Shown in pieces: positions 1 through 33,226 of a stretch of 33,398 nt of DNA. Origin of the DNA: a virus. The notes beneath the pieces are model-generated. The model saw nothing but the letters and a program-made list of their open reading frames with translations, was not told where the DNA came from and searched no databases. Numbering within the stretch: the first letter of the stretch is position 1; every line of letters starts with the position of its first letter. Position numbers and translations under genes: made by a program. The stretch lies in the IMG/VR virus record IMGVR_UViG_3300005563_000072, positions 1-33,398 of that record. One strand, written 5' to 3'.

Positions 1-380
1 GGAGGATTGGTGCGGCCCTTGAGCCATGCATTGAAGTCCGGTTCGCAACCGAAAATCTTCGCGGCCATACTGCGCAGACGACTCGGGGAGAAGTGCGCCG
101 AGGGACTGAAATCGAACGATACATCTTGAGGCAAACGGCCTCGCAGGTGTTGGAGAACCGTGTTGACGCTTTGCACGAACTCGTCGGCAGTACGGGCTGG
201 AGCAGTATTGAACTCCACCATGACGTTGTCATGCAGGACGGCGGAGCCGTTCTCGTCAATCTTTTCGGGATACCATTTGGTTCCCTTAAGAAACTTGGCT
301 GCGCCGATGTAGCCCTTCTGGTCTTTCAGAAAGAACTCGGGGTCGCAACCAATAGTTACGTTCTCAAACAACTTACTCAT
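1..380 (-). CDS. Phage COOH-NH2 ligase (amidoligase, glutamine-synthetase-like), 5' part only
   Basis: The first 126 residues of a protein running off the left edge. It resembles the phiEco32-type COOH-NH2 ligases, predicted ATP-dependent enzymes with a glutamine-synthetase-like fold that join a carboxyl to an amine; the substrate is unknown. Visible family-type motifs are GCDPEFF (residues 11-17), DNVMVEFN (51-58), whose acidic residues would be metal or ATP ligands, and GCEPDFNAW (111-119). The start follows a strong AGGAG site six bases upstream, and a TTAACA-N2-TGTTAA palindrome sits 17 nt further upstream. It is the leftmost gene of a leftward operon with the C26-type hydrolase two genes upstream, a pairing known for amidoligases. 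The C-terminal half cannot be judged here. Confidence 0.85.
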   Translation of the reverse strand, partial: MSKLFENVTIGCDPEFFLKDQKGYIGAAKFLKGTKWYPEKIDENGSAVLHDNVMVEFNTAPARTADEFVQSVNTVLQHLRGRLPQDVSFDFSPSAHFSPSRLRSMAAKIFGCEPDFNAWLKGRTNP

Positions 381-397
381 GTGAATCTCCTAAAAAG

Positions 398-411
398 TTA
401 ACAAATGTTAA
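398..411 (-). promoter_or_regulatory. TTAACA-N2-TGTTAA motif, copy 1
   Basis: The near-palindrome TTAACAAATGTTAA, 17 nt upstream of the amidoligase start. Identical 14-mers occur at 2037, 5232, 6923 and 8106, and a spacer variant at 6362. The arms are conserved and the spacer varies, as expected for a dimeric protein-binding site. Confidence 0.6.
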
Positions 412-610
412 ACCGGTCCAAACTCTTCTTCCAATGAAGCAGGTGCTCCTCTTCATTTGTAAATGCCCGTCCACTTCCGCCCGGCCAATGGCTCCGAGCG
501 TCATGATCCAACTGATTCAACCGGTTATTAATCACGTTGATCAGGGCGTGGAGTTCTTCCTTGTTTTCAATCGTGATGGTGAGCGGTTGAAACTGAGCTA
601 CAATTTTCAT
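398..610 (-). CDS. Hypothetical protein, 70 aa
   Basis: Unrecognised small soluble protein. The ATG at 610 has an AAGG site eight bases upstream and follows the preceding gene by nine bases. Its N-terminal half has a beta-strand-like start followed by a probable helix with alternating Asn/Leu (ALINVINNRLNQL), and it ends with a Trp/His-rich helix. The stop codon and last codons lie inside the TTAACA-N2-TGTTAA palindrome at 398-411 that precedes the amidoligase, so coding end and putative operator overlap. Its place between the C26-type gene and the amidoligase suggests it may belong to the same functional unit, but this is inference from position. Confidence 0.7.
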   Translation of the reverse strand: MKIVAQFQPLTITIENKEELHALINVINNRLNQLDHDARSHWPGGSGRAFTNEEEHLLHWKKSLDRFNIC

Positions 611-619
611 GATAGTACC

Positions 620-838
620 TTAGAAATCAAGCGTGCAAGTTACAGCAGGAACCACAGCACGGTCTGCGTCAACTCTGAACAACTCACCAACACCACCAAG
701 GTTGGCACAAGCCGTCTCAGATACTTTTACACGAGCGTGTGGTACTGGGAATCCACGGGCGTCAGCAAAGATGAACACGCCCCCGATTCTCAACAGTTGG
801 AAAGAGGTTGATGCTGATGCATTGACCGTGATTTTCAC
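620..838 (-). CDS. Hypothetical protein, 72 aa, GTG start
   Basis: Unrecognised. The proposed start is a GTG whose TG is shared with the TGA of the upstream C26-type gene (GTGA overlap), with a GGGAG site eight bases before it, inside that gene. A longer reading from 952 would sit wholly inside the C26-type gene and is not preferred. The protein looks beta-rich, with alternating hydrophobics (VFIFADARGF, ARVKVSE, AVVPAVTCTL). The overlap implies translational coupling to the hydrolase, so it could be a partner of the amidoligase cluster; no function is assigned. Confidence 0.65.
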   Translation of the reverse strand: MKITVNASASTSFQLLRIGGVFIFADARGFPVPHARVKVSETACANLGGVGELFRVDADRAVVPAVTCTLDF

Positions 839-1494
839 AGCAGTTTCTCCCGGATCAGTTCGCGCCAGAATGCCACACTTTCGCAGTCCGGGTCCATCCA
901 TTCGGGATGGCCTTGAATGCCGAGAGCGTTGGAGTTCACGTAGTGGATGCACTCCAGTTCTGTGTCGACGCCGTTGATTTCCTTGTCGTTACCGTCCAGA
1001 TAACGTTTGGACAGCAGATTGTCGGAGATGCCCAACACAACCCAGTCCGGCTGCATACGGGTAGGATCGACCATCTGATGGTGGGCCGATGGGAACGGAA
1101 GGATTTTGTTGTAGCCCTCGAAATTCACCAGATGACGACCACCTGCGTGGCCCGTAACGTCCTGAATGAGGCGACCGCCGGACAGACCAGCAAACAGCTG
1201 ATGGCCGCGGCAAATGCCAATCATCGGAATGTCTTCGGAGCGGAAGAAGTTGAACAACTTGACCTCTTCTTTGTCGCGGTCCGAGAAGCGAGTGTTGGAA
1301 CCGCAAGGCTCACCATACGTAGCCGGATTGACGTCTTCACCACCGGTGAACATCGCAATGTCGGCTTCCGCCGGATCGCGAGTCAGGGCAAAGTGAGCAA
1401 CATCGTTTTGTTCGAGTAGGTAGGCCGCGTAACTGAACGACGAACCGACAACAAACAACTTAGGCAGCAACGAATTTTGGTTGGTTTGAATCAT
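835..1494 (-). CDS. Class I glutamine amidotransferase / peptidase C26-like hydrolase
   Basis: A 219-residue protein of the gamma-glutamyl hydrolase/PuuD-like class I amidotransferase family. Visible features are GGEDVNP (51-57), typical of C26 peptidases; the nucleophile elbow GICRGHQ with Cys95 (93-99); GGRLIQDV (107-114); and GIQGHPEW (192-199) giving His197 and Glu199 of a Cys-His-Glu triad. Length fits a stand-alone domain. Known relatives either release ammonia from glutamine or cleave gamma-glutamyl amides. Next to an amidoligase it could supply ammonia or reverse the ligation. The start has an AAGGA site and overlaps the upstream gene by 35 nt. Fold assignment is strong; substrate is inferred. 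Confidence 0.9.
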   Translation of the reverse strand: MIQTNQNSLLPKLFVVGSSFSYAAYLLEQNDVAHFALTRDPAEADIAMFTGGEDVNPATYGEPCGSNTRFSDRDKEEVKLFNFFRSEDIPMIGICRGHQLFAGLSGGRLIQDVTGHAGGRHLVNFEGYNKILPFPSAHHQMVDPTRMQPDWVVLGISDNLLSKRYLDGNDKEINGVDTELECIHYVNSNALGIQGHPEWMDPDCESVAFWRELIREKLL

Positions 1495-2239
1495 CTTTTG
1501 TTTCCTTCGGGTTAAAAAGCTCTTGATAATAAGGAATGGCGTACTTCAAAACACCTTCCCGATTATTTACTTGTGCACACGGTAAGGCGTAATCCGTTTT
1601 GAAAAAGTTGTTGATCCCGTTTGCCGTCTTACTTTGCATGAGGGCAGTAAAGCACTCAAACTTATTTGGAGTAAAGTGGGCTGTAGGAAGAATACCGTGG
1701 CCCGTGCTGCTATAGTCAAGGCATTCGTATTGTTTATCTTCCACAAAACCGTGGCGAGATGCGAAGAAACACCCGCTACGATGTTGCGAAACGCAGAATG
1801 CGGCCCATGTCTTTTCCGGCGTACCTTGGAACAGGTCCGGGTACTCTTTTGCCAGCTCCAGCATACCAAACAAATGGCACGGATTTTCTTGCAGATACCG
1901 AGCAAGGGTAAGGCGGGCAAGTGGTGGGGCGATAGCAGAGGAGTGTATCTTAACAATGAACGCAACATTCTCGTTCTCGTCAATCTCCATCTGCATATCG
2001 GTTACACCCCAAGATTGGAGTACATCCCACCACCACTTAACAAATGTTAACTTGTCCATCCCGACTACTTCCAAACCTTTTTTGTAGTTTGGATGCGTGA
2101 AGTTGTCGTTCAAGAAGAAGCGAACTTCGGTGCCCTTGTAGAACTCACCGCGCCATTGAGAAAAGCAAGCTCGGTTAAGCAGGCTGGAGATAACCACCCC
2201 GCCTTTGAGCATGTCAGCGGTAACGTCCTGCTTAAACAT
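1460..2239 (-). CDS. Hypothetical protein, 259 aa, upstream of the C26-type gene
   Basis: Not recognised. It is the largest unknown in this cluster. The ATG at 2239 is preferred over a TTG six bases earlier; a GGAG lies ten bases upstream. It appears globular and soluble, Trp-, Phe- and Cys-rich, with a central AFCVSQHRSGCFF segment and HGILPTAHF near residue 188; conserved Cys/His could be catalytic, but I cannot assign a family. The ATG overlaps the end of the upstream gene (ATGTTTAA) and its 3' end overlaps the C26-type gene by 35 nt, so the genes are probably co-translated. A TTAACA-N2-TGTTAA motif lies in frame inside it (2037-2050), encoding LTFVK. Confidence 0.75.
   Translation of the reverse strand: MFKQDVTADMLKGGVVISSLLNRACFSQWRGEFYKGTEVRFFLNDNFTHPNYKKGLEVVGMDKLTFVKWWWDVLQSWGVTDMQMEIDENENVAFIVKIHSSAIAPPLARLTLARYLQENPCHLFGMLELAKEYPDLFQGTPEKTWAAFCVSQHRSGCFFASRHGFVEDKQYECLDYSSTGHGILPTAHFTPNKFECFTALMQSKTANGINNFFKTDYALPCAQVNNREGVLKYAIPYYQELFNPKETKDDSNQPKFVAA
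2037..2050 (-). promoter_or_regulatory. TTAACA-N2-TGTTAA motif, copy 2 (inside a gene)
   Basis: An identical 14-mer lying in frame in the 259-residue gene, where it encodes LTFVK. It may be a binding site embedded in coding sequence. Confidence 0.5.
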
Positions 2240-2432
2240 GGGCAACGTGCTCCAGAGTTTGTTTGATCACAAACGCCGGGGGGCGGGCACCTCCTACCAC
2301 TTTGAGGTAAACGTGACCGGCGCGATTCTTGTTGATGTTGAAACGTGTGTGGGTAGCAGGACCCCAACCTTCACGGCCCCAGAACACATCAACAAGGTAC
2401 GTTGTGACCTTACGATAGACGATGGTACTCAT
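2232..2432 (-). CDS. Hypothetical protein, 66 aa
   Basis: Unrecognised small basic protein. I take the ATG at 2432; the same frame is open further upstream to 2603, but that would overlap the neighbouring gene almost completely. It contains Tyr/Trp/Gly-rich segments (VFWGREGWGP) and a run of basic residues. The upstream purine-rich AAGAAAG is a weak ribosome site. Its last eight bases overlap the start of the 259-residue gene, so it is likely part of the same coupled operon. No function can be proposed. Confidence 0.6.
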   Translation of the reverse strand: MSTIVYRKVTTYLVDVFWGREGWGPATHTRFNINKNRAGHVYLKVVGGARPPAFVIKQTLEHVAHV

Positions 2433-2448
2433 GATGTTCTTTCTTGAG

Positions 2449-2631
2449 TTAAGCTGCAAGGGGTTCGGCGTAGTGCTCGTTGTACAGAACATGAGCATCT
2501 TCGCCCGAGGCGATGACGATGCGGCTGTCAGGACGACGATGAACTGTGCCACCCTTCGGTTGCTTTGTTTGTTGCATACCGAGTGCTTCGGCGGTCTTGG
2601 CAAGTACTTGTTCCAAATTGCGTTTGATCAT
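2449..2631 (-). CDS. Hypothetical protein, 60 aa
   Basis: Unrecognised. The start at 2631 is preceded by an AAAGG site and overlaps the stop of the upstream gene (ATGA), the classic translational coupling arrangement. The N-terminal 20 residues look helical (RNLEQVLAKTAEALGM) and the rest is a charged, probably extended region. It ends 16 nt before the next gene. Small size and context fit a phage accessory protein of unknown role. Confidence 0.65.
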   Translation of the reverse strand: MIKRNLEQVLAKTAEALGMQQTKQPKGGTVHRRPDSRIVIASGEDAHVLYNEHYAEPLAA

Positions 2632-3062
2632 TTCTTACCTTTCTTTTGTGGATAGACGGCGAGGGTGCGGATGGTGTTGCCGGAATTTGGATTGACGAAC
2701 ACGCCCACTTCAACGCAGCCGGGCAACTCGCAGACCAATTCCATCAACACGGACGCGTCGTAGGATTTCATACCCAATTCCTTGGCGAAATTGAAGATGC
2801 AGCCCTTATTCAAGTACACCTCACTTGCCAGTTCGGCTTGCCACGCCACGCGTAAATCGTGATAGTAGTCTTTTGCTTTCAATTGAGCCGGAGTGAGGCG
2901 GCCATCGTCAAGGGCGACCCAGTCCCAGTTAGGATTCCATTTGTTTTTTGAAAAGGATTTTTTCATCATGGCGGAGAAGTTTCCGTACTCCCGCATGCCG
3001 CAGCAGAAAGGAAGATCGTCGTTCTCGATCCCACACTGAATTTCAAATTCTTTGTTACTCAT
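2628..3062 (-). CDS. Hypothetical protein, 144 aa
   Basis: Unrecognised soluble protein with seven Cys residues, including a CC pair near residue 21. The start at 3062 has GGAG nine bases upstream; the upstream in-frame ATGs at 3068 and 3086 are less well placed. The ATG overlaps the stop of the upstream 55-residue membrane protein by eight bases. Some segments (MELVCELPGCVEVGVFVNP) look like a mixed alpha/beta core. The downstream ATGA overlap joins it to the 60-residue gene. No family match could be made by eye. Confidence 0.7.
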   Translation of the reverse strand: MSNKEFEIQCGIENDDLPFCCGMREYGNFSAMMKKSFSKNKWNPNWDWVALDDGRLTPAQLKAKDYYHDLRVAWQAELASEVYLNKGCIFNFAKELGMKSYDASVLMELVCELPGCVEVGVFVNPNSGNTIRTLAVYPQKKGKK

Positions 3063-3222
3063 TTTCATCTTCTCCGAAATCGTCATATTGCAGGCCGTAG
3101 AATGTGTTCCAGCCTAGTATGACATAGTTAACGATGTGTCCGGCGATGAAGCCGACCAAGAAAAATGGGAGGGCAAATATCCACTGGATAGCCGTCCCGA
3201 TTACGATTACGAGGGCTTCCAT
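3055..3222 (-). CDS. Small membrane protein, 55 aa
   Basis: A short ORF below common length cut-offs. It starts with ATG at 3222 inside the 3' end of the preceding gene and ends overlapping the next gene's start. Residues 3-37 are strongly hydrophobic and aromatic (ALVIVIGTAI, FALPFFLVGFIAGHIV), long enough for one or two membrane passes, followed by an acidic C-terminus (DDFGEDENE). No strong ribosome site precedes it, so translation probably depends on coupling to the upstream gene. Small phage membrane proteins of this kind can act in host take-over or superinfection exclusion; that is a guess. Confidence 0.6.
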   Translation of the reverse strand: MEALVIVIGTAIQWIFALPFFLVGFIAGHIVNYVILGWNTFYGLQYDDFGEDENE

Positions 3223-3591: not shown

Positions 3592-3987
3592 TTATCTCTT
3601 TCCAGAACGTGAGGAGGACGGACGGCTTGTGAAGCTAGGCCGCGATGGTTTCATCACCGGTTTTGCAACGGGTGATTTGGGTGGTTCCCGGTAATTGTTG
3701 ACGATCACCGTCTTGCGTTGCACCACCGTGGTCGTGTTTTGTACGGGTGGCGCAGCTTGACTACTGCCACCACCGCCAAGCAACTTGCTTGCCAGATAAC
3801 CGCCCGCCGCGCCGATAGCCATGTCGCGGACCGTGTGGTCTTGAGCAGGTGTGGCTTCTTGCAACGTGGTTTGCGTGCCGTCGGCGTTCTGCTGCACGAC
3901 CTTGGGTTGCGGGGGTGGGTCTTTGTCCAGACAACCTGTCAGGGCGGCGCACGCCGCGAACACGCCGAGGATGATAGTAGTCTTCAT
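3592..3987 (-). CDS. Lipoprotein with glycine-rich central segment
   Basis: A 131-residue protein with a clear lipoprotein signal peptide: MKTTIILGVF start, hydrophobic core and lipobox LTGC with the lipidated Cys19. The residue after Cys is Leu, which does not favour inner-membrane retention. The mature protein has a Pro/Gln-rich linker, a glycine-zipper-like segment near residues 55-78 (MAIGAAGGYLASKLLGGGG) and a basic Ser/Pro-rich tail. The start overlaps the upstream gene (ATGA). Phage-encoded lipoproteins outside lysis cassettes often alter the envelope, for example to exclude superinfecting phage; that role is inferred. The spanin lipoprotein is encoded separately at 11.0-11.3 kb. Confidence 0.8.
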   Translation of the reverse strand: MKTTIILGVFAACAALTGCLDKDPPPQPKVVQQNADGTQTTLQEATPAQDHTVRDMAIGAAGGYLASKLLGGGGSSQAAPPVQNTTTVVQRKTVIVNNYREPPKSPVAKPVMKPSRPSFTSRPSSSRSGKR

Positions 3988-4343
3988 TTCAAGAACTCCT
4001 TGAGTTTGGAAAGCTGAACGGCTTTGGCCATCTTCGTAATACTAGGCAAAGTGTAGGTCAGGTCTTTGGCATCGGTTTCCGAACTATATGCATACAGATT
4101 GACGTATACCACCGGGTCTTCTTCCCACATGAAAATGTCGAAAGGATCGGCTCGTTTATCCTTTCGGGCGTTACCATTTGCATGGCACCAATAAACCGCG
4201 CCGCTGTCGGAGCGCAGCACCGTATTGCATCCCGAAATATTAGGATCGTGTGCCACGAAATAAACCTTGGTGCCGTCACGAGTGACCAACTCGTCGCCTT
4301 GCTTGACCTTGGTAACGTCAAGCGGAACTTTTACTTTGCTCAT
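3984..4343 (-). CDS. Hypothetical protein, 119 aa
   Basis: Unrecognised. I take the ATG at 4343 (MSKVKVPLD), which overlaps the upstream stop as ATGA, rather than the longer reading from 4412. The N-terminal half reads like a small beta-barrel or SH3-like fold (KQGDELVTRDGTKVYFVAHD, then AVYWCHANG), followed by a FMWEED segment and a helical, Lys-rich C-terminus. Its stop overlaps the lipoprotein start. This is typical of small phage early proteins; no function is assigned. Confidence 0.7.
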   Translation of the reverse strand: MSKVKVPLDVTKVKQGDELVTRDGTKVYFVAHDPNISGCNTVLRSDSGAVYWCHANGNARKDKRADPFDIFMWEEDPVVYVNLYAYSSETDAKDLTYTLPSITKMAKAVQLSKLKEFLK

Positions 4344-4882
4344 GATGGGTGCTTTCCTTGTGTAACTTTGATGTTTGCGGACTTCAACACCGGGAAGAAC
4401 AAGTGAGCGCAACGAACACCGGTTTCACGGGTAAATTCCGTAACGACTGCGCCCTCGTATTCGTTGGCGAACTTCACCCACTGCGAGAAGTTCTTGTCGT
4501 CGGCGCTGCTGACTGAGCAGCACACCACGCGGTCATTGTAACGCAGCACGAAGGAGGCTGCGACAACGAAGGCCAAGAAGTGCGGTGGCTCGACATATTG
4601 AGTTCCGACGGCAAACGCCATGTAGCACGGAAAGTAGAATGCACCATTCTTCGCAAGTTCCATGCCACGATAATGAGAACGGAACAGCTCTTGTTTTGTA
4701 AAGTAGCCCTTGTAATCCTCCGACAGGCCAAGCTCGTCCGCAAAGACGTCGAAAGGATTGTGCGACGAGAGCAACTTCACAGGAAAGTTATATTCCCGCT
4801 CCCCTGCTTTTTTGTTGAGATATTCCTGCGCCTTGACGGTGAAGTCAGTGAACAGGGCCGAAACTTGTGCAGCAGTCGTCAT
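4340..4882 (-). CDS. Hypothetical protein, 180 aa
   Basis: Unrecognised. The ATG at 4882 follows an AAGGA site about 11 bases upstream, 12 nt after the preceding gene. It is rich in Phe/Tyr, with a central hydrophobic stretch (HFLAFVVAASFVLRY) that could be a membrane segment or a buried strand, and two adjacent Cys (VVCCSV). The C-terminal part is mixed alpha/beta. It is coupled by ATGA to the downstream 119-residue gene. It may be membrane-associated, but a soluble core is equally possible. Confidence 0.65.
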   Translation of the reverse strand: MTTAAQVSALFTDFTVKAQEYLNKKAGEREYNFPVKLLSSHNPFDVFADELGLSEDYKGYFTKQELFRSHYRGMELAKNGAFYFPCYMAFAVGTQYVEPPHFLAFVVAASFVLRYNDRVVCCSVSSADDKNFSQWVKFANEYEGAVVTEFTRETGVRCAHLFFPVLKSANIKVTQGKHPS

Positions 4883-4894
4883 GATAGTAAGTCC

Positions 4895-5188
4895 TTAGAC
4901 TGGTTGAAAGACCATGCGATGGGCCGACGGGACGGGCTTGAAGACTTTGACCTTCTTGCCCTTGTTGTATTCGAACTGAGCAACGAAGCCGTTGTTCTTT
5001 GCCGACTGTTCGAGCAGGTGGGCACGTTTCGCCTCGGCCTTCTCGTAGTCGTGCACGTAGTCACGGTTTGGTTGGATCAACTTCAATTGCTTGAGGTCGA
5101 CGATGGAAGCCAGCTTACCGGTCTTACCGGACGAGATTCGCAAGCCCTTGGATGCGTGGCCCTTGTTGTCGATGATATGCTTTGCCAT
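4895..5188 (-). CDS. Basic hypothetical protein, 97 aa
   Basis: Unrecognised, strongly basic (Lys/His/Arg-rich), with a central helix DYEKAEAKRAHLLEQSAK, suggesting nucleic acid or acidic-protein binding. The start is secure: AGGAG lies six bases upstream of the ATG at 5188. It has its own leader of about 85 nt containing the composite repeat at 5232-5277 (palindrome plus hairpin), so it may head a separately regulated transcript or be subject to attenuation. The N-terminus resembles a short basic tail (MAKHIIDNKGHASKG). Confidence 0.7.
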   Translation of the reverse strand: MAKHIIDNKGHASKGLRISSGKTGKLASIVDLKQLKLIQPNRDYVHDYEKAEAKRAHLLEQSAKNNGFVAQFEYNKGKKVKVFKPVPSAHRMVFQPV

Positions 5189-7156: not shown

Positions 7157-7852
7157 TTATGCTGCCAGCGGTTCGGAGACGGGCGGCGTGATAGTAGCGC
7201 CGACGGCTTCGGCCTTTTCCTTGGCTTCATCTTGCTTGGCGCTTTGATCGAGCAAGGACTTGGCGTGGTCCAGAATCTTGGCGATGCGACGTTGCACAAT
7301 GTCAATGTCGGTAGGCTTGTCGGCAAGCATTTCCTCCAGCTTGTCGAGCACATCGTCGATGGCCGTGGCTTCGGGTGCTTTGCGATGCGCCGCAACGATC
7401 TTGCGCATTGCATCCGTGGTCAGCAGGACCGGGATACCTGTTGCCGCGTCCACATCTTGGCGAACAGCAACGCCGTGAACCCAACATTTCAGGGCGAGCG
7501 AGCGCGTGTCAGCATACTGACCAGCCGAACGCATGGACTTGAATGTGGCTTCATCGAAACCCCACTCCTTGCCGATGGCGTCCTCGATGTTGCGCGTCAG
7601 GGCCAGCAGTTCCTTTGTGATAACACCGCCGGACTTAAACGATTCCATCTTGCCGGTTTGTTGCAAGGCGTCAATGAAGGTAGCGGCAGCAGCACGAACC
7701 GATGCCATGCCCTTGACATAGGTTTTGAGGGTACGCGAGGTTTGATCCTTGGTCAGACCCTTGTCGTGCACAAGAGTAACACTTGCCTCAGCGCCAGCCT
7801 TGGAAATGGAAGTGACGACAACGGCGTCTTTATTGATGGTGTATTTCAACAT
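7157..7852 (-). CDS. Hypothetical protein, 231 aa
   Basis: Unrecognised, the second largest protein of the leftward arm. AAGGA lies eight bases upstream of the ATG at 7852. An N-terminal beta-like region (MLKYTINKDAVVVTSISK) precedes an all-helical body; the C-terminal 60 residues are a long charged helix (RRIAKILDHAKSLLDQSAK) and an Ala/Glu-rich tail ending PPVSEPLAA. No catalytic motif or membrane segment is seen. It has its own intergenic spaces on both sides (hairpins at 7937-7955 and 7112-7132), suggesting it may be transcribed as a separate, perhaps abundant, early unit. Confidence 0.75.
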   Translation of the reverse strand: MLKYTINKDAVVVTSISKAGAEASVTLVHDKGLTKDQTSRTLKTYVKGMASVRAAAATFIDALQQTGKMESFKSGGVITKELLALTRNIEDAIGKEWGFDEATFKSMRSAGQYADTRSLALKCWVHGVAVRQDVDAATGIPVLLTTDAMRKIVAAHRKAPEATAIDDVLDKLEEMLADKPTDIDIVQRRIAKILDHAKSLLDQSAKQDEAKEKAEAVGATITPPVSEPLAA

Positions 7853-28705: not shown

Positions 28706-31700
28706 ATGGCTCTCCAAGAATTTGATGGTGAACTGGACCCAACCAGCTATAATGATCCACGACTAGACGCCTACGCGCGCGAAGCCGCTGTCAAACGTGG
28801 CTTGGACCCAGATATCCTAGTTACAATTAAAAATCAAGGGGAGCGTTCTAATCCTACAGCAGTGTCTCCAAAAGGTGCCCGTGGCGTCATGCAACTGATG
28901 CCCGGCACTTGGAAGGCATACGGTAAAGGCCATCCTGATGATCCATATGCGTCTATTGACGCGGCTGGCGACTTCCTTAAGACAGAGCTATACCCCAAAT
29001 ATAAAACAAATAAGGCAGCCATGCTGGCCCACTACAATGGTGGTGTAAAAGCTGGAGAGGCCATATTGGCAGGGCTTGATGCTCCTTATGCAGAAACCCG
29101 TAATTATTTGAATCGAGCAGCTCCGAAAGGAGGTCTGGTCCCATTTGAGGGACAACTAGATTCTGATAATGGACTACAAGAATTCACTGGAGAGCTGGAC
29201 AAGCCAGAAACTCCTGAGCAACCAATTGTGCTTGACCAACCAGCAACTTCAGTTGCAAGTACACCAGTTCCAGCACTTGCTCCCAAGTCTACTAGTATGC
29301 TTGACGACATTGGTGCTGGCCTCAAAGATATTTGGGACAATCCGGGCACAGCAGCAAAAATGGCTGCCTCGTCTGGGGCGAAAATTGTCGATTTAGCGGG
29401 TAGCGTAGGTTCTATGGCTGCCGGTTATCTTGGTGGCGGAGCAGCCGGACTTATTTCTGGCGACCTTGACGTAGCTAAGAAGGTCAAAGACGAGATCATG
29501 GGTAAGCTGAGTCTGGACAAACAACTTCAGAAGTCCGGCCTTGCTATTGAAAATGCAGAGCCTTTTACTGGTGCTCTTGATACGGTTATTGGTAAGCCTG
29601 CGGAAGTTATTGCCCATACGGTGGCCCCTACTCCCGGTTTTGTACAAGACGTCGTCAAAGACGTATCTATGGCTGCACTTCCTTACGGTCTTCATAAAGG
29701 TAGTAAGGCACTTGCTGAACGAAGTGTGCCTACTCCAGAAGTTCCAAAGGCGGCCCCAGATGTAGTTACTACACCGAAGCTTCAAGAGTTTCAGGGAGAA
29801 CTTGATCTTGGAGAAGCCCCGCAAGCAGGTCCAATTCAACCGGGCGCAGGGTTAATCAAGAATACTGAAACTATTCCGGCCATTCAAGACTTAGCTAATC
29901 AGGCTCGTATGGATTTGGTTCAGCCAGACTTTCAGAATGCTCAAAAAGCATTTGGTCAGTTTGACGATGCCGTGGCTAAAACTGAGGCTAATCGCCCGGA
30001 GATTACTCCAGACCAATTGCAATTGTTTGAAGGTAAGTTGGACCAAGAAAATCCAGCCTATCCTAACCAAACACCCCGCTTGGACGAGGTTGTTCCAGAG
30101 ATGGATACTCGTACAATGGAGCAGAATAATCTGTTTCTGAATCCATTAGATGATTTGGTTCGCACCGCAAGGGAAGAAGCAAGTCCGGAACCTTACGCAC
30201 CACCTACTCCAGAACAGTTGGCTCAACAACGTATGGAGCGACGTATTAATGCTGCTCGTGAAGAGCCCATTGATCTTCCGGGACGTAAGCAAAGCCAGAT
30301 TCCTTTGGACCTAAGTACTCCTGATTATGTTAGCTATCAGCTAGACCGCGCTGCCGAGGATATTCAAGGCCGTGGTACTCAAAACTTGGATGGTACTTAT
30401 AATTTGGCAGGTCCTACTAAAGAGGACTTCCAAACCAAGAAGGACTTGCCAATGGTTATGTCTCCTCAGAAAGTGGTGGAGACTATGGGTGTTACTGCTA
30501 CTAATCTTAAACCTCCGCCAGCCGAGTTGGTTCGCTCTATTTCTCCTAACTGGGCTAAACGTGATACTTGGAATGAGCACCCAATTCTTCGCTCTACTTT
30601 TGATAACCTGAATCACTTACGTGATGAACGTAATGCATGGCTTAAGGATATCGTAGAACCAAAGCGTAATGAAGAAGGTGTCCTTGTTAAGCCCACTCAG
30701 TATTTGGATTCATTGGATGGCATGGAGCGCCGTGAGCAAGCCCACTACACTACCAAGTATGAAGGAGAGACTACTCCGGCTATGAAGGCTGAGGGACGTA
30801 ACTTCTTTAACTACGAAGAGTGGCGTGAGCGTGGAGCTTCTGATCGTGTTGCTAAAGCTCTTGTTGAGGGTTCGGATATTTATCAGAAGTCTTTGGAGAA
30901 GTATAACGCGGAAGCTAAGATGTTGGGAGAAAAACCAATTGCCGTTATTCCTAACTATTTTCCACATCGTCATATGGGAGACTTCTTTGTTGAGATCACG
31001 GACAAGCGTAACGGCCAAAAAGAAATCTTTCCGTTCCAAACCCTTGCGGATGCCAAGAAAGCTACACGGGATATTAGTCCTAGCGTAGATCGCTCCACAC
31101 ATCACATTGACTACGGACGTAAACAGCGTGGTGGAAATGATTTCAAGGACTTGATGGATGCTCTCCGCTCTCGTTCTGAAACCTTCCACGGAACGTCTCC
31201 TTCTGGCTTTACTACTATGCTTGATTCTATGCGTAAGAGTATGGATGAGGCATTCTTTGCCGGTAAAGAACGACGCACAGGTGCAGGGCACTATACCGGG
31301 GAGCAGGGGTATGATCTTAATGCTTCAAAGGCTCTTGCCCGTAAACAAAAAGAAGAAGTTCGATTTGTTACCGACAGCCCAGTTAAATACGCTACTGACA
31401 TGTCTAACTACCTGTTGGATCGTAAAGCAACCGGATTGAAGGAAGCCTATCAAAAAGCAGCAGAGGATAACGGTTTCGCCCATACCGGGGCGTGGTCTGA
31501 AACCAAGCGAGTAATGGATAAGCAAACTTCCTTGTACACAGACCCTGTGTTTGATTCAAGCAAGTCCACGTTTATCGAGGATGCTGCTGATTCTGTCGCC
31601 AAGTTGTTAGATCGTAATTCGGCTATTGAGGGCCATGCTCCTGTGTCTTGGTTGACACGCCGAGCCTTGGTGTCTCGCATGCACAATCTCAATCGTACGG

Positions 31701-33226
31701 CTACCAACTTGCTTCTGCATCCAGTTCTTAACTCTGCTTTGACTGCCTCCCAGTTCGCGCAATTCATGACTAGTCCAATTAACGTGGTGAGTCAAATCTC
31801 CCGTGCGTTGGCTAAGAATGAGGCACCATCCGGATTCATTGAGCAACTCAAACACACTGGTAAAACTCCTGCTGTTATTGGAGAAGCTTTTGCCAAGGGT
31901 GTGTGGGATGTTATGGCCCCTGAGAAGCTTAAGTCTGAGTCTGGTAAATCTGCACTGGCATGGGCAAAGCAACACGGTCATTTGGATTCTATGTTCAGCC
32001 ATGAGCATTTGGATTCTAAGGGCCGTGCAAAGCGTGCTATTAAGCTGGAAGGTTTAACTGTGGCGAGTGAGCAGTACCCACGTTCTATGACCTTCTTGGC
32101 GGGCTATAATGCGTTCCGTCGTCTTGGTTTCTCCGACATGGCGGCTAAGAAGGCTAGTGTTGAGTTTGCTAACACCATCATGGGAGACTACACCAAAGAA
32201 GGTAAGATTGAGTTCATTCGTGAACAATCTCCTTTGGTTGGTACTGCTATCTCCCCATTCTCTACTTGGATGTGGAATGCTAAAGCTCAGGTGGGTGCTC
32301 TTGCTACAAGTCTTGGTTCTCATGGAGCAGCTAAGAACTTTGTTACCGGAACTGTGGTTCCTTTGGCGGCTCTTGTTGGGGCTACTACAGCCTTTACAGG
32401 CTGGTCTGGTATGCCGGGAGTCCAAGATTACGATAATATCGTTAAATGGATTAACGAGACGTACAACACAGAACTGGCTACATCGTCTCAAGTTAATCTT
32501 GAGCATGGGGCTGACATATTCGGTTCGGATAAGGCTGCTAACGTAGGGTACTATGGAGCACTTCCAGAGGCAACAGGACGGGACACCGCGAAGTCTATTC
32601 GTTATGGCTCTATCTTAGACTTTGGTGCTCCGGGCGTAAGCTACGCAACAAGCCTTGGTAAAGCCGGTTATCAATTGGGTAAGAAAGGTTTGTCTGAACT
32701 CGGTCTGGTGGAAACTCCGACTGATGCTGATCTTTACAAAGCAGTCAAGAGCGCAGCTCCTCCGGGAACTAAGACTCTGGTGGAAGACTACTTTGCGAAG
32801 GATCGTCAGGACGGGGGCAAGGCTTTGAAATCCGGAATCATCCGCAAAGAGGGTGAATCTACCAAGGCCATGATTCTGCCATTTGGAGACCTTTCGGAAA
32901 AGAAGCAGCAAGATGTTAATAACACCGCTAACTATGTCAAGGCTCGTCAAAACAAACTGGCTGATCGCCAGCTTGAGTTGATCAAAGATAAGGCTTTGCG
33001 TAATGAAGATGTGTCATCTAACTTCAAGCAGCTTATTGATCTAAATCCAGACTACGCTAAACACCCAGTGTCGGTTGTCCAGTCTGTTGTTCAGGAAGCT
33101 ATGAAGCGTCAGTTGAGTCAGCAAGAATTTGAGGCTCTTAAGGCGGCTCGTAATCAATCTCTGAACGACAAACAAGATGCCGCCCGGCGTAAACAATATA
33201 TGGAGCGTGTACTGAATGCCAAATAA
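28706..33226 (+). CDS. Giant internal virion protein with lytic transglycosylase domain
   Basis: A 1506-residue protein. Residues 18-138 form an SLT-type lytic transglycosylase: GERSNP with catalytic Glu46, SPKGARGVMQLMPGTW (54-69), and AMLAHYNGG (105-113). It would open the peptidoglycan for DNA entry, like T7 gp16. Residues 1-450 contain six copies of F-x-G-x-L-D in flexible Pro-rich linkers. Hydrophobic Gly/Ala segments (about 215-252 and a C-terminal TVVPLAALVGATTAF) could insert in the membrane. The remaining body is large and helical. AAGGA precedes the ATG; the stop overlaps the endolysin start. Confidence 0.88.
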   Translation: MALQEFDGELDPTSYNDPRLDAYAREAAVKRGLDPDILVTIKNQGERSNPTAVSPKGARGVMQLMPGTWKAYGKGHPDDPYASIDAAGDFLKTELYPKYKTNKAAMLAHYNGGVKAGEAILAGLDAPYAETRNYLNRAAPKGGLVPFEGQLDSDNGLQEFTGELDKPETPEQPIVLDQPATSVASTPVPALAPKSTSMLDDIGAGLKDIWDNPGTAAKMAASSGAKIVDLAGSVGSMAAGYLGGGAAGLISGDLDVAKKVKDEIMGKLSLDKQLQKSGLAIENAEPFTGALDTVIGKPAEVIAHTVAPTPGFVQDVVKDVSMAALPYGLHKGSKALAERSVPTPEVPKAAPDVVTTPKLQEFQGELDLGEAPQAGPIQPGAGLIKNTETIPAIQDLANQARMDLVQPDFQNAQKAFGQFDDAVAKTEANRPEITPDQLQLFEGKLDQENPAYPNQTPRLDEVVPEMDTRTMEQNNLFLNPLDDLVRTAREEASPEPYAPPTPEQLAQQRMERRINAAREEPIDLPGRKQSQIPLDLSTPDYVSYQLDRAAEDIQGRGTQNLDGTYNLAGPTKEDFQTKKDLPMVMSPQKVVETMGVTATNLKPPPAELVRSISPNWAKRDTWNEHPILRSTFDNLNHLRDERNAWLKDIVEPKRNEEGVLVKPTQYLDSLDGMERREQAHYTTKYEGETTPAMKAEGRNFFNYEEWRERGASDRVAKALVEGSDIYQKSLEKYNAEAKMLGEKPIAVIPNYFPHRHMGDFFVEITDKRNGQKEIFPFQTLADAKKATRDISPSVDRSTHHIDYGRKQRGGNDFKDLMDALRSRSETFHGTSPSGFTTMLDSMRKSMDEAFFAGKERRTGAGHYTGEQGYDLNASKALARKQKEEVRFVTDSPVKYATDMSNYLLDRKATGLKEAYQKAAEDNGFAHTGAWSETKRVMDKQTSLYTDPVFDSSKSTFIEDAADSVAKLLDRNSAIEGHAPVSWLTRRALVSRMHNLNRTATNLLLHPVLNSALTASQFAQFMTSPINVVSQISRALAKNEAPSGFIEQLKHTGKTPAVIGEAFAKGVWDVMAPEKLKSESGKSALAWAKQHGHLDSMFSHEHLDSKGRAKRAIKLEGLTVASEQYPRSMTFLAGYNAFRRLGFSDMAAKKASVEFANTIMGDYTKEGKIEFIREQSPLVGTAISPFSTWMWNAKAQVGALATSLGSHGAAKNFVTGTVVPLAALVGATTAFTGWSGMPGVQDYDNIVKWINETYNTELATSSQVNLEHGADIFGSDKAANVGYYGALPEATGRDTAKSIRYGSILDFGAPGVSYATSLGKAGYQLGKKGLSELGLVETPTDADLYKAVKSAAPPGTKTLVEDYFAKDRQDGGKALKSGIIRKEGESTKAMILPFGDLSEKKQQDVNNTANYVKARQNKLADRQLELIKDKALRNEDVSSNFKQLIDLNPDYAKHPVSVVQSVVQEAMKRQLSQQEFEALKAARNQSLNDKQDAARRKQYMERVLNAK

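Follow-up and report, generated by a model that had tools for sequence, protein, structure and literature searches.

What system is encoded at the left end of the IMG/VR virus record IMGVR_UViG_3300005563_000072, where a ligase gene runs off the contig next to a hydrolase gene and several uncharacterized reading frames? We studied this record whole (33,398 bases, hereafter the window), the features of interest lying at its cut left end. The plus strand is a phage late region, with genes for a terminase, a portal protein and an internal virion protein with an SLT domain, and the minus strand at the left end carries early-type genes. A preliminary description had placed here, on the minus strand, five open reading frames (ORFs) encoding a COOH-NH2 ligase, a C26-type hydrolase and three uncharacterized proteins of 259, 72 and 70 amino acids (aa), and all five were confirmed. 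Very probably, the contig ends within a previously described phage cassette for amide-bond chemistry and retains its 5' part. The cassette is better known than the preliminary description implied; the new part is a family of hydrolase partners, of which the 259-aa protein looks like a divergent member.

The ligase ORF (3-380, minus strand) is open at the contig end and encodes 126 aa, the N-terminal part of a COOH-NH2 ligase, predicted to be an amidoligase of the glutamine synthetase (GS) fold. The fragment matches PHROG 3815, 'COOH.NH2 ligase' (E-value, E, 1.8e-24). It has no match in Pfam; in its orthologue from the closest relative, the IMG/VR contig L002 (record G001, 49,994 bases), the PF14395 region occupies residues 137-210, beyond the cut. 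The L002 orthologue, of about 263 aa and with 66% identity to the window fragment, matches PF14395 (phiEco32-like COOH-NH2 ligase type 2) at E 8.5e-13. Eight positions are invariant in 83 ligase sequences, the window fragment included (G6, D8, E10, K31, D47, E52, G107 and C108 in the L002 numbering), six of them falling in the motifs GxDPE, K and DNxxxE and the other two forming GC.

The fold was taken from the L002 orthologue of the cut window protein, modelled by AlphaFold2 with 83 sequences (predicted local distance difference test, pLDDT, 96; predicted template modelling score, pTM, 0.93). The neighbours of this model found by Foldseek and VIA-align are glutamate-cysteine ligase, YbdK and GS. 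In particular, YbdK is superimposed with a Z score of 15.1 (212 residues, 3.0 Å), followed by plant glutamate-cysteine ligase (14.1), human GS (14.0) and PafA/Dop (about 13); gamma-glutamyl-methylamide synthetase is also among the small-molecule fold neighbours. The model thus falls within the amidoligase fold and, with the PHROG 3815 match, confirms the earlier prediction of a phiEco32-type amidoligase with the GS/glutamate-cysteine-ligase fold.

The hydrolase (835-1494, minus strand; 219 aa) is a class-I glutamine amidotransferase/C26 gamma-glutamyl-hydrolase-like protein (GAT1). Its better score is with Pfam Peptidase_C26, PF07722 (E 2.4e-15; 57 bits against a curated cut-off of 20.5), the other with GATase, PF00117 (E 3.5e-9; 37 bits against 22.8); it also matches PHROG 7218 (E 8e-29) and is 59% identical to its L002 counterpart. 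The catalytic triad is intact: Cys95 stands as initially described, while the other two residues had been placed one position too far (His197 and Glu199) and are His196 and Glu198. In the family alignment, the Cys is kept in 165 of 165 members, and the His and Glu in all 152 members aligned there. The nearest solved relatives by sequence are Lin1909, putative class-I amidotransferases and the carbamoyl-phosphate synthase small chain, with PuuD as a weak match. WD-40 and designed WRAP chains in PDB, also matched by the hydrolase profile, were discarded as spurious, since these matches cover fewer than 30 residues. Judging by these features, the protein most likely is an active gamma-glutamyl-type hydrolase or amidotransferase.

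A scan of viral contigs with the single hydrolase protein yielded zero relatives, and alignment queries were needed. Eighty viral loci were recruited by the hydrolase alone and 40 by the ligase; genes were counted within the fetched flanks, and the counts are raw, have no background rate and include some near-duplicate loci. Among the 80 hydrolase-recruited loci, 75 carry the ligase, in support of the earlier statement that phage amidoligases pair with such hydrolases, 71 a class-II amidotransferase, 70 an ATP-grasp gene, 66 a second amidoligase (amidoligase-2) and 52 a gamma-glutamyl cyclotransferase (GGCT). The 40 ligase-recruited loci contain an ATP-grasp gene (35), a class-II amidotransferase (35), amidoligase-2 (34), the hydrolase (32), a protein of ~200 aa (30) and GGCT (9). 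These levels of co-occurrence leave little room for chance. In many cassettes (L048, L049, L053-L057, L066 and others), two or three GAT1 copies surround the ATP-grasp gene.

The remainder of the cassette can be seen in L002. The two phages share 67% identity in the terminase, 68% in the portal protein over 487 aa and 38% in the 1506-aa virion protein, and in both the cassette lies ~10 kb from the terminase. The gene order in L002 is 56 aa, 242 aa, hydrolase, 152 aa, ligase, 204 aa, amidoligase-2 (PF12224), class-II amidotransferase (PF13522) and ATP-grasp (R2K_2/RimK). In the window, the last three enzymes would lie beyond the contig end. Since L002 is colinear with the window and has the complete cassette, the left extension of the window is predicted to supply the missing part of the ligase, followed by counterparts of the four L002 genes from 204 aa to ATP-grasp, which supports the earlier suggestion of a class-II amidotransferase past the contig end. 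The ~200-aa protein between the ligase and amidoligase-2 (U200; L002:5044-5658 and relatives) has no Pfam match.

If the cassette acts as its enzymes suggest, the ligase would use ATP to activate the carboxylate of a side chain, with a gamma-glutamyl group as the most likely one, and then join it to an amine. The C26-like enzyme could cleave amides of the gamma-glutamyl type, either to trim the acceptor or to take off links made by the host itself, and the second amidoligase, the class-II amidotransferase and the ATP-grasp ligase, predicted past the contig end, would add further links, so that a host envelope peptide is altered early in infection. Published work on related phages puts forward such a peptide as the target, and we tentatively favour it here. 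During infection by the phage PSA-HP1, the cassette genes are transcribed first (PMC7082346), which fits alteration of the host and singles out no target.

Two other targets have to be weighed. The product could be a small molecule, the cassette being a set of auxiliary metabolic genes that move nitrogen via gamma-glutamyl compounds in a glutathione-like or PuuA/PuuD-like cycle. The small-molecule ligases among the fold neighbours (YbdK, glutamate-cysteine ligase and gamma-glutamyl-methylamide synthetase), the weak PuuD match of the hydrolase and the frequent GGCT genes of related cassettes are in line with this, and nitrogen metabolism has been proposed for such genes in Phage-ZRK32 (PMC10945688). 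However, the growth effect of that phage was not assigned to single genes (PMC10945688), and a simple nitrogen role leaves unexplained why two GS-fold ligases, an ATP-grasp enzyme and two amidotransferases are kept together; we regard this alternative as somewhat unlikely. It is less probable still that the cassette attaches amino acids to proteins of the host or the phage through isopeptide bonds, as PafA/Dop or the R2K or RimK ATP-grasp enzymes do. PafA and Dop are indeed among the ligase fold neighbours, the L002 ATP-grasp protein matches both R2K_2 and RimK, and the R2K_2 enzymes of phages have been suggested to modify host proteins (PMC4431377), but YbdK and glutamate-cysteine ligase outscore PafA/Dop, and no Pup-like substrate gene was seen.

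The 259-aa protein (1460-2239, minus strand, ATG start) is encoded immediately upstream of the hydrolase. A scan of viral contigs with this single protein found no relative, and its sole BLAST relative is the 242-aa protein in the identical slot of L002, with 25% identity. To characterize this position, the genes adjoining the hydrolase were clustered across all loci, yielding two large unannotated families, FAM24 and FAM29. Compared by hhalign, the pair of window and L002 proteins matches FAM24 over 171 columns (E 3.3e-6, probability 88; these E-values, here and for FAM29, are pairwise rather than database-wide, and seven clusters were tried). None of 300 column shuffles reached the real score (45.4, against 22.2 for the best shuffle), and the controls gave E 0.008 at best for other clusters and 0.3 for the reversed sequence. 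With FAM29, the pair scored 24.7 (E 0.008), little above the best shuffle (23.4). The positions aligned with FAM24 include ACF (Cys25), RYLxExP (Arg114, Glu118 and Pro120) and GH (His181). Cys25, Phe26, Arg114 and Glu118 are invariant in the 15-sequence alignment with FAM24; the His aligned with His181 is absent from two FAM24 members. FAM29 has the matching residue order, with C46, R139 and H190 invariant and E143 nearly so. A chance match, with the 259-aa gene being lineage-specific and unrelated to the family, as might be thought from the weak matches of the window and L002 proteins to FAM24 when taken singly (E 0.002 and 0.006, respectively) and from the lack of a direct BLAST relative outside L002, is very unlikely given the combined E-value, the distance from all shuffles, the invariant Cys, Arg and Glu aligning in order and the identical slot overlapping the hydrolase.

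The 259-aa protein thus looks like a divergent FAM24 member and a component of the same system. FAM24 is absent from Pfam and PHROG alike, and sequence comparison linked it to no solved structure. FAM29 matches PHROG 27195, 34254 and 38092, none with an assigned function, and its members are found as 'hypothetical protein' in cultured phages of Pseudomonas, Klebsiella, Citrobacter, Salinivibrio and Vibrio (e.g., K4 gp20). DUF1861 was discarded as the Pfam identity of the 259-aa protein, its match (0.044) being below the cut-off. The 279-aa protein upstream of the hydrolase in L008 may also belong to the family, although the profile match became weaker once it was included.

The link of these families to the hydrolase is seen in gene position and in fusions. 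With few exceptions, a FAM24 or FAM29 gene terminates at the start of a hydrolase gene, and 34 of the 104 distinct hydrolase contigs have such a gene immediately before the hydrolase. Two contigs carry hydrolase-FAM24 fusions of ~510 aa as single ORFs (L079:6449-7984 and L120:6469-7998), with the hydrolase at ~35-208 followed by the FAM24 domain at ~245-510; the FAM24 copy in these fusions has lost the conserved Glu. As the genes of the family overlap the beginning of the hydrolase gene and two contigs have the two proteins fused, the 259-aa protein would act as the dedicated partner of the hydrolase, and a physical or functional partnership is the simplest reading of position and fusion. It is also possible, although we put this forward with some reserve, that the 259-aa protein, FAM24 and FAM29 form one overlooked, fast-evolving family of enzymes or adaptors that is obligately paired with the C26 hydrolase and acts through the Cys, Arg, Glu and His. 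If so, the cassette gains a chemical step outside the published model. In any case, signature, position and fusion together link a highly variable neighbour gene to the hydrolase and make it a concrete, testable partner.

Several points weigh against this overall interpretation. Only two cassette enzymes are present in the window, one of them cut, and the remainder is taken from a relative. The link of the 259-aa protein to FAM24 is based on a two-sequence profile, and structure prediction, proposed earlier as a check, was of no help, as the AlphaFold2 model from two sequences was unusable (pLDDT 42) and profile comparison provided the link instead. The gamma-glutamyl chemistry is deduced from fold neighbours and from the GGCT genes of related cassettes, and no substrate of the cassette has been shown for any phage in the literature that we found.

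Among the three uncharacterized proteins proposed earlier as components of the system, the 259-aa protein holds its place by profile match and slot, whereas the two small ones do not. The 72-aa ORF (620-838, minus strand) begins with a GTG that overlaps the stop codon of the hydrolase (GTGA), and the 70-aa ORF (398-610, minus strand) is preceded by AAGG. For neither ORF did phages (no match below E 0.3 for the 70-aa ORF), some 140 fetched loci or L002 yield a relative, and hence neither co-occurs with the ligase elsewhere. Read in their own frame, the 259-aa and 72-aa ORFs resemble the phage late genes in codon use, which is frame-specific in the 72-aa ORF; the 70-aa ORF gave no distinct signal in this test. 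Many loci have no gene in the slot between the hydrolase and the ligase, and others have unrelated genes there, such as the 152-aa gene of L002 (L002:3745-4203). A relationship of the two ORFs to this gene or to the CCG family (see below) was tested and found unsupported. Both are best seen as lineage-specific inserts, probably so for the 70-aa ORF.

On the minus strand, the genes follow in the order 66 aa, 259 aa, hydrolase, 72 aa, 70 aa, ligase. They had been described as packed with overlaps, which holds for two junctions, 259 aa/hydrolase (35 nucleotides, nt) and hydrolase/72 aa (4 nt); the 72-aa and 70-aa ORFs and the 70-aa ORF and the ligase are separated by gaps of 9 and 17 nt, respectively. 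The 66-aa ORF (2232-2432, minus strand), directly upstream of the 259-aa gene, is syntenic with the 56-aa ORF of L002 (52% over 25 aa, E 0.005, order kept). A better accessory candidate than the 72-aa and 70-aa ORFs was overlooked in the preliminary description, namely the 152-aa protein encoded at 2628-3086 (minus strand). It belongs to the small 'CCG ... NxNSGN' family (profile E 1e-8; hhalign E 1.7e-8), whose genes lie next to that of the hydrolase in the closest relatives, including the Alcaligenes phage QDWS535. Comparison of positions 1-3100 with plasmids gave zero matches.

Other minus-strand genes of the window include those for a 180-aa protein (4340-4882), weakly related (hhalign E 3e-4) to two L002 paralogues, one of which is in the hydrolase-ligase slot; a 97-aa protein (4895-5188), 45% identical to L002:1383-1658 and in the same early synteny block; a 131-aa protein (3592-3987) with a signal peptide, a lipobox-like LTGC and a glycine-rich stretch, resembling a phage-encoded lipoprotein; and a 231-aa early protein (7157-7852), 36% identical to that of the sister phage. 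On the plus strand, the 1506-aa internal virion protein (28706-33226) has its SLT lytic transglycosylase domain at the N-terminus.

The cassette was reportedly first analysed by Iyer et al. in 2009 and Hardies et al. in 2013. Under the name "peptidoglycan modification cassette", it has been described with seven genes in RIO-1, PSA-HP1, phiEco32, 7-11, PA11, tf, MR299-2, LUZ24, PaP3 and CW02 (PMC5498523), and it was also reported in phiM6 (PMC6256558); in these papers, too, the modification of peptidoglycan is a hypothesis. In a Pseudomonas phage under directed evolution, missense mutations occurred in the amidoligase and aminotransferase genes (PMC11450229). The cassette recurs in very different phages, namely podoviruses, a crAss-like phage, and marine and soil contigs.

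Similar to the RIO-1-type cassette, the window has the hydrolase beside a gamma-glutamyl-type amidoligase, and L002 adds the second amidoligase and the ATP-grasp gene. Unlike it, the window holds the 5' part alone, with other small genes between the hydrolase and the ligase, and no GGCT was seen in the fetched stretch of L002. YbdK and plant glutamate-cysteine ligase share the fold of the phage ligase, although with an identity of 13-16%. The Alcaligenes phage vB_Af_QDWS535 (OK172329) has a related terminase (about 47-49%) and the full cassette, comprised of peptidase, COOH-NH2 ligase, amidoligase, Gn_AT_II and ATP-grasp, but a homologue of the 259-aa protein is undetectable in it, and two CCG-family proteins lie between its hydrolase and ligase. 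In Paundecimvirus (PA11, K4, O4 and TC6), a FAM29 protein (K4 gp20, PHROG 27195-like) overlaps the start of the amidotransferase, and the ligase, the amidoligase and ATP-grasp come after these two, although a class-II amidotransferase precedes the ligase and the sequence similarity is very low. As the FAM29 version is carried by the cultured Pseudomonas phages PA11, K4 and O4, it is testable in a laboratory strain.

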